DNA of 64,000 nucleotides, taken from contig WGNL01000006.1 in assembly GCA_016124585.1 (NCBI GenBank), forward strand, positions 62,001 through 126,000, read 5' to 3'. The position numbers and the translations under genes are program-made. Positions 5,740 to 64,000 of this stretch are shown piece after piece (the first letter of the stretch is position 1; every line of letters begins with the position of its first letter). The stretch comes from Bacteroidota bacterium (GTDB taxonomy: Bacteria; Bacteroidota; Bacteroidia; Chitinophagales; Saprospiraceae). The notes beneath the pieces are model-generated. The model worked only from the letters and a program-made list of their open reading frames with translations, had not been told where the DNA came from and made no database searches.

Positions 5740-7806
5740 ATGACCTTTCCCCACCTCTTCGCCCCCCTCGACCTCGGCTTCACCACCCTGCCCAACCGGG
5801 TACTCATGGGCAGCATGCATACGGGGCTGGAGGAAACGAAAAACGGCTTTGAACGCTTGGCAACTTACTTCGCAGAGCGGGCAAGGGGCGGTGTCGGCCT
5901 CATTGTTACGGGGGGCATTGCGCCGAACCGGCAAGGTTGGGTAAGCCCCTTCGCCGCCCGCATGACGAACCGCTCCCATGTGGCGGAGCACCAAAAAGTG
6001 ACAAAAGCAGTCCATGCCGAGGGTGGCAAAATCTGCATGCAAATACTGCATGCCGGGCGCTACGGCTACCACCCGTTGGCAGTGGCACCTTCAGCCATCC
6101 AGTCGCCGATTTCCCCTTTCAAGCCTTGGGCGCTCACGGGCTGGGGCGTGCGGCGCACCATTTCGGATTTTGTTCGCTGCGCAAAATTGGCACAGGACGC
6201 TGGGTACAACGGCGTGGAAATCATGGGCAGCGAGGGCTATCTCATCAACGAATTTATCGTTTCAAAAACCAACAAGCGCACCGACGAATGGGGCGGCCCG
6301 TTTGAAAACCGCATCCGTTTCCCCATCGAAATCGTGCGGCAGGTGCGGCAGGCTGTCGGCCCGAACTTCATCATCATCTACCGCCTTTCCATGCTCGACC
6401 TTGTTGATGATGGTAGCACTTGGGAAGAGGTGGAACAGCTTGCGAAGGAAATCGAAAAAGCGGGTGCCACCATCATCAACACGGGTATTGGCTGGCACGA
6501 GGCCCGTGTGCCGACCATCGCCACGATGGTGCCACGGGCAGGTTTTGCTTGGGTGACGAAGCGGCTGATGGGAAAGGTGGGTATCCCGCTCATCACCACC
6601 AACCGCATCAACATGCCTGAAGTGGCGGAACAGGTGCTGGCCGAGGGCTGCGCCGACATGGTGAGTATGGCCCGACCTTTCCTCGCCGACCCCGATTTCA
6701 TGAGAAAAGCCGCAGATGGCCGCCGGGACGAAATCAACACCTGCATTGCCTGCAACCAAGCCTGCCTGGACCATACTTTCAAGCGCAAAACGGCCTCTTG
6801 CCTCGTGAACCCAAGGGCTTGCCACGAGGCCCTGATGCCCGTTTTGCGAAGCGAAACCAAAAAGAAAATTGCCGTGGTGGGCGCTGGCCCTGCCGGACTG
6901 GCCGCTGCCACGACGGCGGCGAAGCGGGGGCATGAAGTCCATCTCTTCGAGGCTGCCGCTGAAATCGGTGGGCAGTTCAATCTTGCCAAGCGGATACCCG
7001 GCAAGGAGGAGTTTCACGAGACGCTGCGGTATTTTGCGAAGCAACTCGAAATCACGGGCGTTCAACTGCATTTGAACACAAAGGCAACGGCGGATTTGCT
7101 TGAAAATCAAGGCTTTACTGAAGTGGTGATTGCTGCTGGGGTAACTGGACGAAAGGCTGGGATTGAAGGGGAAGCGCATCCAAAAGTGGTGAGCTACACG
7201 GATTGTTTGCTTCGCAAAAAGCAAGTCGGGAAGTCCGTCGCCATCATCGGAGCGGGTGGGATTGGATTTGATGTGGCGGAGTTCCTTTCGATTGCGGATC
7301 CCGGATTGCCCCGACAAACTGTCGGGGCGGATTCCGAGGCCCAAATCCGAAATCCGAAATCCGAAATCCGGGATTTCATGGAGGAATGGGGCGTTGACCA
7401 AAAATATGAGCATCGGGGTGCCATTACCAAGCCACATCCCGACCCATCGCCCCGTGAAATTTACCTGTTGAAACGTTCCGAAGGCAAGCACGGCTACACC
7501 CTCGGCAAGACCACGGGCTGGATTCACCGGACCAGCCTGAAAATGAAAAAAGTGAAAATGCTCGGCCAAGTGCAGTATGTGAAAATTGACGACGAAGGCT
7601 TGCACATCATTTACGAAGGAAAATCACAGATACTTCGGGTGGACAACGTAGTGATTTGCGCCGGGCAAAATTCCGTGCGGGACCTGTACGATGTGCTAAT
7701 TGCGAAGGGGATGAAAGCCGCGCTCATCGGTGGCGCAAAACTGGCGGCAGAGGTGGATGCCAAGCGAGCAATTGCGGAAGGGGTGGAGTGGGGGCTGAAA
7801 GTTTAA
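5740..7806 (+). CDS. fadH: FadH-type 2,4-dienoyl-CoA reductase / NADH:flavin oxidoreductase, 688 aa
   Basis: An N-terminal old-yellow-enzyme FMN barrel (residues ~1-330) is followed by an iron-sulfur motif [10 protein letters not shown] ... CLVNPRAC (about 345-373) and then FAD/NAD(P) Rossmann folds ([12 protein letters not shown] at about 378; [11 protein letters not shown] at about 501). This is the layout of NADPH-dependent 2,4-dienoyl-CoA reductase, which removes double bases of unsaturated acyl-CoA during beta-oxidation. The exact substrate is inferred. Residues ~520-545 are encoded by an inserted palindromic/tandem repeat (see 7298-7374). The 3' end overlaps the convergent lipid kinase by 3-4 bases. 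Confidence 0.85.
7298..7374. repeat. Palindromic repeat element inside the fadH-like gene
   Basis: Outer arms ATCCCGGATT (7298-7307) and AATCCGGGAT (7365-7374) are exact inverted repeats. Between them lie a 9-bp hairpin (7308-7316 / 7320-7328, GCCCCGACA with AAC loop) and four tandem copies of AAATCCG (7343-7370). The reading frame stays open through all 77 bases. Confidence 0.85.
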
Positions 7807-61709: not shown

Positions 61710-64000
61710 TTAGTTCAATTCATGCTCTAAAAACGCCCCCGTAAAACTCTCTCTCTTCGCCTTCACCACCTTTTCCGGCGTGCCTTCCACCACCACCTTG
61801 CCGCCACGGCTGCCGCCATCTGGCCCCATGTCCACAATCCAGTCGGCGGTCTTCACCACGTCGAGGTTGTGCTCGATGACGAGGACGGTGTTGCCCTTGT
61901 CCACCAGCTTGTTCAGCACCCGAAGCAAGTGGCGGATGTCCTCGAAATGCAGACCCGTGGTGGGTTCGTCGAGGATGTACATGGTGTTGCCTGTGTCTTT
62001 TTTCGATAGCTCCTCGGCCAATTTCACCCGTTGTGCCTCTCCGCCGCTGAGGGTGGTGGCCTGCTGGCCGAGTGTGATGTAGCCGAGGCCCACGTCGTTC
62101 AGGGTCTTCAGCTTACGGTGGATTTTCGGGACAGGCTCGAAGAACGCCGTCGCCTCCTCCACCGTCATTTCCAGCACGTCGTTGATGCTTTTTCCTTTGT
62201 ACAAAACCTCCAGCGTCTCCCGGTTGTAGCGGCGACCCAGACAGGTCTCGCACTCCACGTACACATCCGGCAGGAAGTTCATCTCAATGACCCGCTGGCC
62301 ACTGCCCTGACAGGTCTCGCACCTGCCACCCTTCACGTTGAAGCTGAACCGCCCAGCCTTGTAGCCCCTGATTTTTGCCTCCGGCAAACCCGTGAAAAGG
62401 TTCCTGATTTCGGTGAAAAGGTTGGTGTAGGTTGCAGGGTTCGAGCGGGGCGTGCGGCCAATCGGTGACTGGTCAATCTCGATAACCTTGTCCAAATGCT
62501 CCAACCCCTTCACCTCTTTGTACGGCAGCGGTTTTTGCAGGCTTTTGTAAAAATGCTGCCGTAAAATCGGGTACAGCGTCTCGTTGATGAGCGAGGATTT
62601 TCCGCTGCCGCTCACGCCTGTTACGCAAGTAAAAGTGCCAAGCGGAATGCGCAGGTTCACGTCCCGCAGGTTGTGGCCGGAGGCGTTTTTCAGTTCGAGG
62701 AAATGGCCGTTGCCCTTGCGGCGCTTCTTCGGCACTTCGATTTGGCGCTTGCCATTCAGGTAGTCCGCCGTCAAGGTGCTGACGCCTTGGAAACTAGCCG
62801 GAATGCCCTCCCCCACAAGTTCACCGCCGTGCTTGCCAGCGCCGGGGCCAAGGTCGATGAGGTAGTCGGCGGCGAGCATGATGTCCTTGTCGTGCTCGAC
62901 CACCAGCACCGTGTTGCCGATGTCGGTGAGTTCCCGCAGGGCCTCGATGAGGCGCTGGTTGTCCCGCTGGTGCAGGCCGATGCTCGGCTCATCGAGGATA
63001 TAGGTGATGCCCGTGAGTTGCGACCCGATTTGGGTAGCGAGCCTAATCCGCTGGCTCTCTCCGCCACTGAGGGTGCGGGCCGTGCGGTTGAGTGAGAGGT
63101 AGTCCAGCCCGACGTGCAGGAGGAAGCCGAGTCGTAGGCGGATTTCTTTCAGAACATCTTTGCCAATCGTTAACTGCCTCTCCGTCAGTTTGTTATCCAG
63201 TTCATTCATCCAATCGGCGAGGGCCTGGATGTCCATGTCGGCCAGTTCGGCGATGTTGCGCTCCGCAATCTTGAAGTGCAGGCTCTCGACCTTGAGGCGC
63301 TGTCCGTTGCAGGTCGGGCAAGTGTCCACGGTCATGAACTCCTCCGCCCACTGCCTGATTTTCTCGCTCGATGTGTCCTCGTACCAGCGCTTGAGTTGTT
63401 TCACCAAACCCTCCTGCGCCAGCCCGAACACCCACTCATTGTCACTGCTGATGGACGGCAGTTTGATGGGGTCACCTCCTCCGTGGAGGATGACTTCGAG
63501 GGCTTCCTTCGGAATTTTCTCGACGGGTGTATCAAACGTGAATTTGTATTTCTTCGCAATCTCTTTGAGCTGCTTGAAGGTGTAATTGTCCCGCACCTCG
63601 CCGAAGGGCACGATGCCCTCCTCGTTGATGCTCTTCGAATCGTCGGGGATGACCTTCGCCATGTCCACCGTATTGATTTGGCCGAGACCGTTGCAGGTGG
63701 GGCAGGCCCCGTAGGGCGAGTTGAAGGAGAAGGAATTCGGTGATGGCTCTTCGTAGCTGAGGCCGTGTTCTGCGTCCATTAAATGCTTCGAGAAAACGGT
63801 TAGAGAGGGATGAGGGATGAGGGATGAGGGATGATCGGCTCCTGCGCCCTTCATCCCTAATCCCTCATCCTTCATTCCTGATTTCATCCCTGATGCCTCA
63901 TCCCTCATCCCTAAAACCATGATGAGCCCGTTCCCCATCTTCAGCGCCGTTTGCATGGAGCCAGAAATGCGCTCCCGACGCTCATTGGCCACACTGAGTT
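61710..64000 (-). CDS. uvrA: UvrABC excinuclease subunit A, 5' end beyond the window
   Basis: The visible part starts inside the first ATPase half (...[13 protein letters not shown]) and covers both ABC modules: zinc finger region CPTCNGLG and CPTCNGQRL, signature [17 protein letters not shown], then P-loop [13 protein letters not shown], Cys cluster [10 protein letters not shown]...CETC, signature [15 protein letters not shown] and Walker [16 protein letters not shown]. UvrA finds DNA damage. The N-terminal ~180 residues are missing at the edge. An in-frame repeat insertion (63807-63914) encodes [24 protein letters not shown] sequence ahead of FSKHLMD. Confidence 0.96.
63807..63914. repeat. 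GGGATGA / TCATCCC repeat element inside uvrA
   Basis: Four perfect GGGATGA copies (63807-63834) are followed by a spacer and an inverted series of TCATCCCTAATCCCTCATCC-type units up to about 63914. Translated on the minus strand it stays in frame with uvrA. The same family lies after mutL. Confidence 0.85.

Follow-up and report, generated by a model that had tools for sequence, protein, structure and literature searches.

Heptamer arrays with changing words, and a palindromic element associated with DUF559, in conserved genes of a Saprospiraceae bacterium and its relatives

How does DNA of short repeat families come to lie, in frame, inside conserved genes, and what becomes of it there? The question is raised by a stretch of 64,000 nucleotides (C10:62001-126000, contig WGNL01000006.1; hereafter the window) from the 6.63-Mb genome, in 45 contigs, of a bacterium of the Saprospiraceae (Bacteroidota). 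The initial annotation had placed members of such families in frame in a fadH-like gene, purL, ileS, mnmE and uvrA and at the 3' tail of uvrC, and had read them as at least five entries by an active process. We find two kinds of repeat: tandem arrays of 7-nt words, which related species carry at the same sites, often in other words, and a palindromic element of two hairpins, whose arms match elements on both sides of a DUF559 gene.

Repeat and lag scans together with the open frames confirm repeat DNA in frame in all five genes, in ileS only as an 18-nt hairpin. For uvrC the claim stands in part: there is a degenerate array, but it is weak and the C-terminus is variable. Pfam was used for gene identity (seven window proteins, later nine more). 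The segments inside genes are:

7294-7371, forward strand: insert of 26 residues in the fadH-like gene, a CCCCGAC/GTCGGGG hairpin plus four copies of AAATCCG (RNA fold of 7288-7375, z -3.3)
7343-7370, forward strand: AAATCCG x4 heptamer array within this insert (Tandem Repeats Finder)
21851-21988, forward strand: two-hairpin palindromic element in frame in purL (gene 20969-24748), 138 nt, 46 residues replacing about 8; 35-nt arms, 83% complementary; fold of 21848-21990, z -8.4
32710-32727, forward strand: CCCGAC-TGCT-GTCGGG mini-hairpin in ileS, 18 nt, net +12 nt against the nearest relatives
35538-35576, reverse strand: TTGGCAG x4.7 array in mnmE (EQLAVGSWQLAVR), lying in the G4-G5 loop, not palindromic
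59944-59976, forward strand: degenerate CAGTTGG-CAGTGTG-CAGTCAG array in the C-terminal tail of uvrC
63804-63911, reverse strand: GGGATGA/TCATCCC fold-back array in uvrA, on both strands, 36 residues, foldable (z -6.3)

Tandem Repeats Finder reports AAATCCG x4 (7343-7370), ACTGCCA x4.7 (35542-35574) and GAGGGAT x4.3 (63805-63834). A lag scan of the window that required 22 of 28 matches found three arrays at lag 7 and one at lag 15, with none at lags 4-6 and 8-14; 20 Markov simulations of the window yielded one lag-7 array in total, which rules out a chance origin. Each of the three lag-7 arrays is inside the open frame of a conserved gene: the fadH-like gene, mnmE or uvrA. The segments are repeat-derived and in frame, as first proposed. 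Isolated, scattered copies of the heptamers in the window carry no evidential weight. In the 464 kb of this genome that were scanned, CCCGAC/GTCGGG hairpins are found only twice, once in ileS and once in the fadH-like gene.

Solved-structure orthologues, taking the best match for each protein, lack these segments: the alignment breaks at MnmE 339-377, at PurL 289-348 and before UvrA 68. In an AlphaFold model of MnmE (22 sequences, mean predicted local distance difference test (pLDDT) 75.8), residues 364-372, within the insert between G4 and G5, have pLDDT <50; residues 241-256 fall below 50 too.

How common are such arrays elsewhere in this genome? An unbiased sample of 400 kb, drawn as 20 stretches, contained six lag-7 arrays at a threshold of 14/16, none of them scored in genes; no lag was more frequent there than lag 7, though lag 10 may equal it, and lag-7 arrays were absent from four simulations. 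The automated coding scorer misses some true cases: in relatives, four arrays that it had classed as non-coding sit in the N-terminal tail of UvrA. We therefore inspected the frames of the six arrays directly. None is clearly interior to a gene: L170 may overlap the N-terminal end of a 1100-residue frame, and L162 may lie at the opening ATG of a frame of 184 residues. The window is thus unusual, and arrays clearly inside genes are rare outside it. A whole-genome search with three words, allowing 1 to 2 mismatches, identified 23 distinct loci (matches within 200 nt merged by hand). In 13 of these the array is intergenic or at a gene end; the other ten are in frame inside genes: mnmE, uvrA, metG, pheT, a chorismate-binding (pabB-like) gene, the fadH-like gene, an ABC exporter, a large protein with two adjoining heptamer words (on C23, no Pfam match at 1e-8), a polyketide synthase and a histidine kinase. 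The last two were left out of the comparison with relatives.

That comparison covers 13 further genomes of the same genus (G001 etc.), several of them in fragmented assemblies. The MnmE loop holds heptamer-derived DNA in 12 of the 13, in at least eight words, G010 being the genome without it; in G013 two partial arrays flank a hairpin. The word is TTGGCAG in the window's genome, TCATACC in G001 and G006, TCATCCC in G008, TTCATCA in G011, AATCACC in G005 and AATCGTA in G012. Words vary at a fixed site also in PheT, MetG, PabB, the fadH-like protein, the linker of the ABC exporter, the large unnamed protein and both sites of UvrA (internal and N-tail); at the internal UvrA site, four species share one heptamer word and two others have palindromes. 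Different words at one spot in related species suggest that parts of these core proteins have been repeatedly rewritten by repeat DNA.

These nine sites, read in eight core species, make 72 cells, 68 of them readable. Lag 7 (12/14 or better) is present in 55 of the 68 segments and lag 8 in three, and the remaining lags between 4 and 12 in none; when the window's genome is set aside, lag 7 accounts for 46 of 59. Eight of the remaining ten core cells are palindromes or hairpins, one is irregular (PabB of G006) and one is empty (UvrA of G012). The six outer species, counted apart, have lag 7 in 8 of 47 segments and one cell each at lags 6, 8 and 12. The heptamer sites thus appear to be long-lived and stable in position with changing words, and mostly not recent entries into the window's genome.

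Some cells show other replacements. The fadH-like site of G006 and the MetG site of G006 and G013 hold arrays of octamers where heptamers would be expected (L120, L147 and L149), and at the fadH-like site of G001 (L124) a third palindrome family (CACGGACTGCCAGTCCGTG, peptide TDCQSVL) is found instead of the heptamer array.

On a wider scale, 72 MnmE loops could be parsed of 80 named. Six have lag 7 at 12/14 and none attains that threshold at another lag; three of these belong to genus members and three lie outside it, in a Bacteroidetes metagenome-assembled genome (MAG), a Salinimicrobium and a Flavobacterium MAG (L211, L251 and L271). Three copies of TCATCCC in tandem were matched in four of 296 genomes of the phylum, the window's genome included, and in none of the other 292. 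Two distant Bacteroidota, G215 and G288, have 37 and 43 such places; of seven loci inspected, two have no exact match on the strand read and the others lie inside unscored frames.

The words differ between species and are uniform within an array, and the frame is kept. Units within an array are 97.0% identical (the best-window value above a threshold, hence selected), the words of different species at the same site 71.2% and the flanks of seven genes 81.5%. Out of seven positions, two words from the same site differ on average at 2.01, words from different sites and species at 2.54 and random words at 3.42; a same-site distance as low was reached in 0 of 2000 permutations. Two pairs illustrate the change: PheT has AATCCGC x4 in G005 and AATCCGA x4 in G011, MnmE has TCATACC x4 in G006 and TCATCCC x4 in G008, and both pairs are of equal length. 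A fixed tree requires that array identity changed 40 times or more across the nine sites, a number that depends on weak nodes (0.725 and 0.874) and on 13 states set by hand. One MnmE state had been coded from the opposite strand; corrected by hand, the total is still 40. It is these changes that support an active process, as the initial annotation had proposed, and not the recurrence in five genes of one window.

At the purL site the palindromic element is missing in six of seven other genomes compared, and G013 has a different palindrome there. Its arms match elements on both sides of a DUF559 gene in the same genome (L361). The same two-hairpin element occurs in relatives, in uvrA of G001 and G006 and in the large unnamed protein of G001, G008 and G011, in the latter with exact inverted arms of 25, 21 and 23 nt, respectively. 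Within the genus, to which whole-genome DUF559 searches were confined, there are 13 matches in 9 of 14 genomes, five strong and eight weaker. All five strong copies have inverted C-rich palindromes nearby, each of a different sequence, and at least two CCCC..GGGG hairpins are present at four of the five strong loci, compared with 0.15% of random 2-kb windows from the window's genome. Among DUF559 relatives outside the genus are 37 plasmid records, none recognised by name as Bacteroidota, and none of the viral contigs searched encodes one.

An entire unit of this kind is found in the essential gene ileS of G010 (L360, contig C66): a palindrome, DUF559 (E 2e-34) and two more palindromes, in frame and together about 230 residues. 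An intein with a homing endonuclease was considered for this insert and rejected, as Pfam finds no splicing domain: 236 residues match only DUF559 and, below the cut-off, MTES_1575.

The initial annotation thus mixed two classes of insert: tandem heptamers, and a palindromic element that has its own candidate nuclease gene. Separate recent entry fits purL and the tiny hairpin of ileS; it does not fit the other genes, where the site is occupied in nearly all close relatives, often by another word.

We consider it probable, though well short of certain, that in this genus the two kinds of repeat have spread into those parts of conserved proteins that tolerate them (loops, linkers and tails), as heptamer arrays under concerted change and as a DUF559-linked two-hairpin element. 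In a heptamer array a 7-nt word is repeated head to tail about four times, in some cases with a fold-back that makes the array inverted; such arrays would have entered certain loops before the split of the near species. A mutation in one unit would spread to its neighbours. Because a slip by one unit breaks the frame, copying that keeps length, or replacement, is required; the likeliest routes are transient misalignment copying, in which a short-range slip is followed by return, and a switch of template to another array. Now and then a whole array would be replaced by another word or by a palindrome, and purifying selection would discard outcomes that break the frame or carry stops. For the two-hairpin element, which measures about 100-140 nt, the DUF559 nuclease is the probable agent of mobilisation.

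Several points weigh against this reading. The sites were chosen with bias, eight of the nine for an array in the window's genome and the ninth, the UvrA N-tail, for arrays in relatives; the assemblies of the relatives are partly fragmented; and the selection behind the within-array identity and the tree behind the change count, both given above, count here as well. A species-wide preference for words was not found (410 of 2000 permutations), so homogenisation of words across the genome within a species is unsupported, which counts against genome-wide conversion as the main route. As for the element, the strong DUF559 copies number only five, and the genome that served as control contains just one of them. 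By an exact 14-mer arm test, three of the five are flanked, against a background of 97 of 1000 and 57 of 295 windows (10-19%), and none of the eight weaker matches is; no target-site duplication could be established.

The same sites could also be explained by independent insertion into a few very permissive loops, with each species gaining its own array after deletion of earlier ones and no concerted change at all. The unrelated words or elements of close species at mnmE and uvrA (GGGATGA against a CCCC palindrome) are as this would predict, and so are heptamers in the MnmE loops of two Flavobacteriales and another MAG (3 of 72 loops, besides the three of the genus). Against it stand the permutation result, in which words sharing a site resemble each other more closely than words from different sites do, and pheT of G005 and G011 and mnmE of G006 and G008, where length and phase are kept and one letter is altered in every unit. 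We regard this explanation as unlikely. Expansion in situ by replication slippage from a local 7-nt seed, without movement between sites, is improbable and disfavoured as the sole cause: heptamers are reported to be the commonest of 5-11-nt repeats in most genomes, with slippage proposed as their origin (cited in PMC4679880, in the portion of that report available), but identical words recur at unrelated genes and at intergenic sites, one flank context holds several unrelated words across species, and a single slip of 7 nt disrupts the frame.

Recombination between species could instead have imported gene segments together with their arrays. UvrA is the case that suits it, as the non-sister species G001 and G006 share both the palindrome and flanking residues (IFILD..IRAF) unlike those of the other near species with an insert; at mnmE and other sites, judged by eye, the flanks do not follow the words, and such exchange is quite improbable as the explanation. 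Mobilisation of the palindromes by a REP-associated tyrosine transposase (RAYT) is not favoured, because the Y1 transposase hits are weak or broken: of three weak Y1_Tnp matches in the window's genome, two overlap in frames with stops (a broken remnant) and the third, at 22.4 bits and below the cut-off, lies in an open frame of 217 residues.

Colonisation by the two kinds of repeat can be put in a bolder form, which we offer as a tentative possibility. Bacteroidota would have a class of palindromic elements not recognised before, with DUF559 as the mobilising nuclease and each DUF559 copy moving its own family; non-autonomous copies would land in frame in essential genes, and a whole unit could persist in IleS, translated and unspliced. 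The heptamers would be a common stock of slowly mutating words by which loops of core proteins are overwritten in concert. If colonisation and concerted change are real, part of the sequence of core enzymes does not stem from ordinary protein evolution but is translated repeat DNA in which 7-nt units change in concert while the frame is preserved; nature would thereby offer an experiment on the entry of repeats into genes and their persistence there. The long-standing question of how heptamer arrays spread would become testable, since the steps can be read at orthologous sites. For an orphan repeat class, the DUF559 link, if true, would supply a partner enzyme.

The window has further repeats outside the genes discussed:

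5706-5734, no strand assigned: CAATTTT heptamer array immediately upstream of the fadH-like gene (repeat and lag scans)
43308-43430, no strand assigned: intergenic CAGTTGG / CTGCCAA units of the family found in mnmE, shorter in G001
52927-52998, no strand assigned: GGGATGA fold-back array at and beyond the end of mutL, of the family found in uvrA

A DUF1508 repeat protein (38750-42427) contains a near-perfect 378-nt tandem duplication at 40535-41257. An inverted repeat at 26231-26391 (35-nt arms, 86% complementary, 91 nt apart) has no connection to the repeat families discussed.

Which known systems do these repeats resemble? Paired inverted palindromes beside a small nuclease gene are typical of repetitive extragenic palindromes (REP) and bacterial interspersed mosaic elements (BIME) with RAYT; our element shares this arrangement, but its nuclease is DUF559. 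Neither concerted word turnover at orthologous sites, stable in position, nor a link of DUF559 with palindromes was found in the literature searched, at the level of listings. Titles and abstract openings on DUF559 hold no palindrome link, no match combined DUF559 with repeat, transposition and flanking, and nothing on Saprospiraceae, heptamers and in-frame insertion was relevant by title among the matches listed.

The short tandemly repeated repetitive sequences (STRR) of cyanobacteria are short tandem heptamers dispersed in the genome, mostly non-coding and of other words than here. A second heptamer system is the TAACTGA direct repeats of Beggiatoaceae, cyanobacteria and some Bacteroidetes, mostly intergenic (MacGregor 2015, PMC4679880). 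According to the available portion of that report, ten sets are interior to open reading frames, in a stop-free orientation that codes for a heptapeptide repeat, and one set lies in an RNA polymerase beta-prime-like protein, within a variable region whose E. coli counterpart forms a surface loop. Our arrays resemble both systems in being tandem 7-nt units mostly between genes, as in the unbiased sample and the three-word search. Two arrays of the GGGATGA family, L029 and L032, stop just ahead of an apparent start codon, as reported for TAACTGA repeats. There is a single word there and many here, and TAACTGA is absent from the 20 words of 55 arrays (rotations and reverse complement compared by eye; the whole genome was not searched for it). 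The portion available of PMC4679880 does not compare in-gene arrays between orthologous sites, nor does it describe turnover of words.

Repeats in frame and heptamers inside genes are thus known kinds, as far as the available parts of the reports go (PMC10969869, PMC2229807, PMC4679880). The Rickettsia palindromic elements (RPE) are small palindromic repeats found between genes and also in frame in unrelated conserved genes, where the frame is kept and the insertion tolerated (PMC10969869, PMC2229807, in the parts available). The likeness in logic drawn in the initial annotation is fair: insertions are in frame in unrelated conserved genes here too, and the purL element, 138 nt with terminal inverted repeats, is inside the RPE range of about 105-150 nt. 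The comparison, one of form and logic, crosses to another phylum, and we do not class the element as an RPE. Unlike RPE, the palindromic class described here is tied to a DUF559 gene, and the main class consists of tandem heptamers whose word varies between species at one and the same site.

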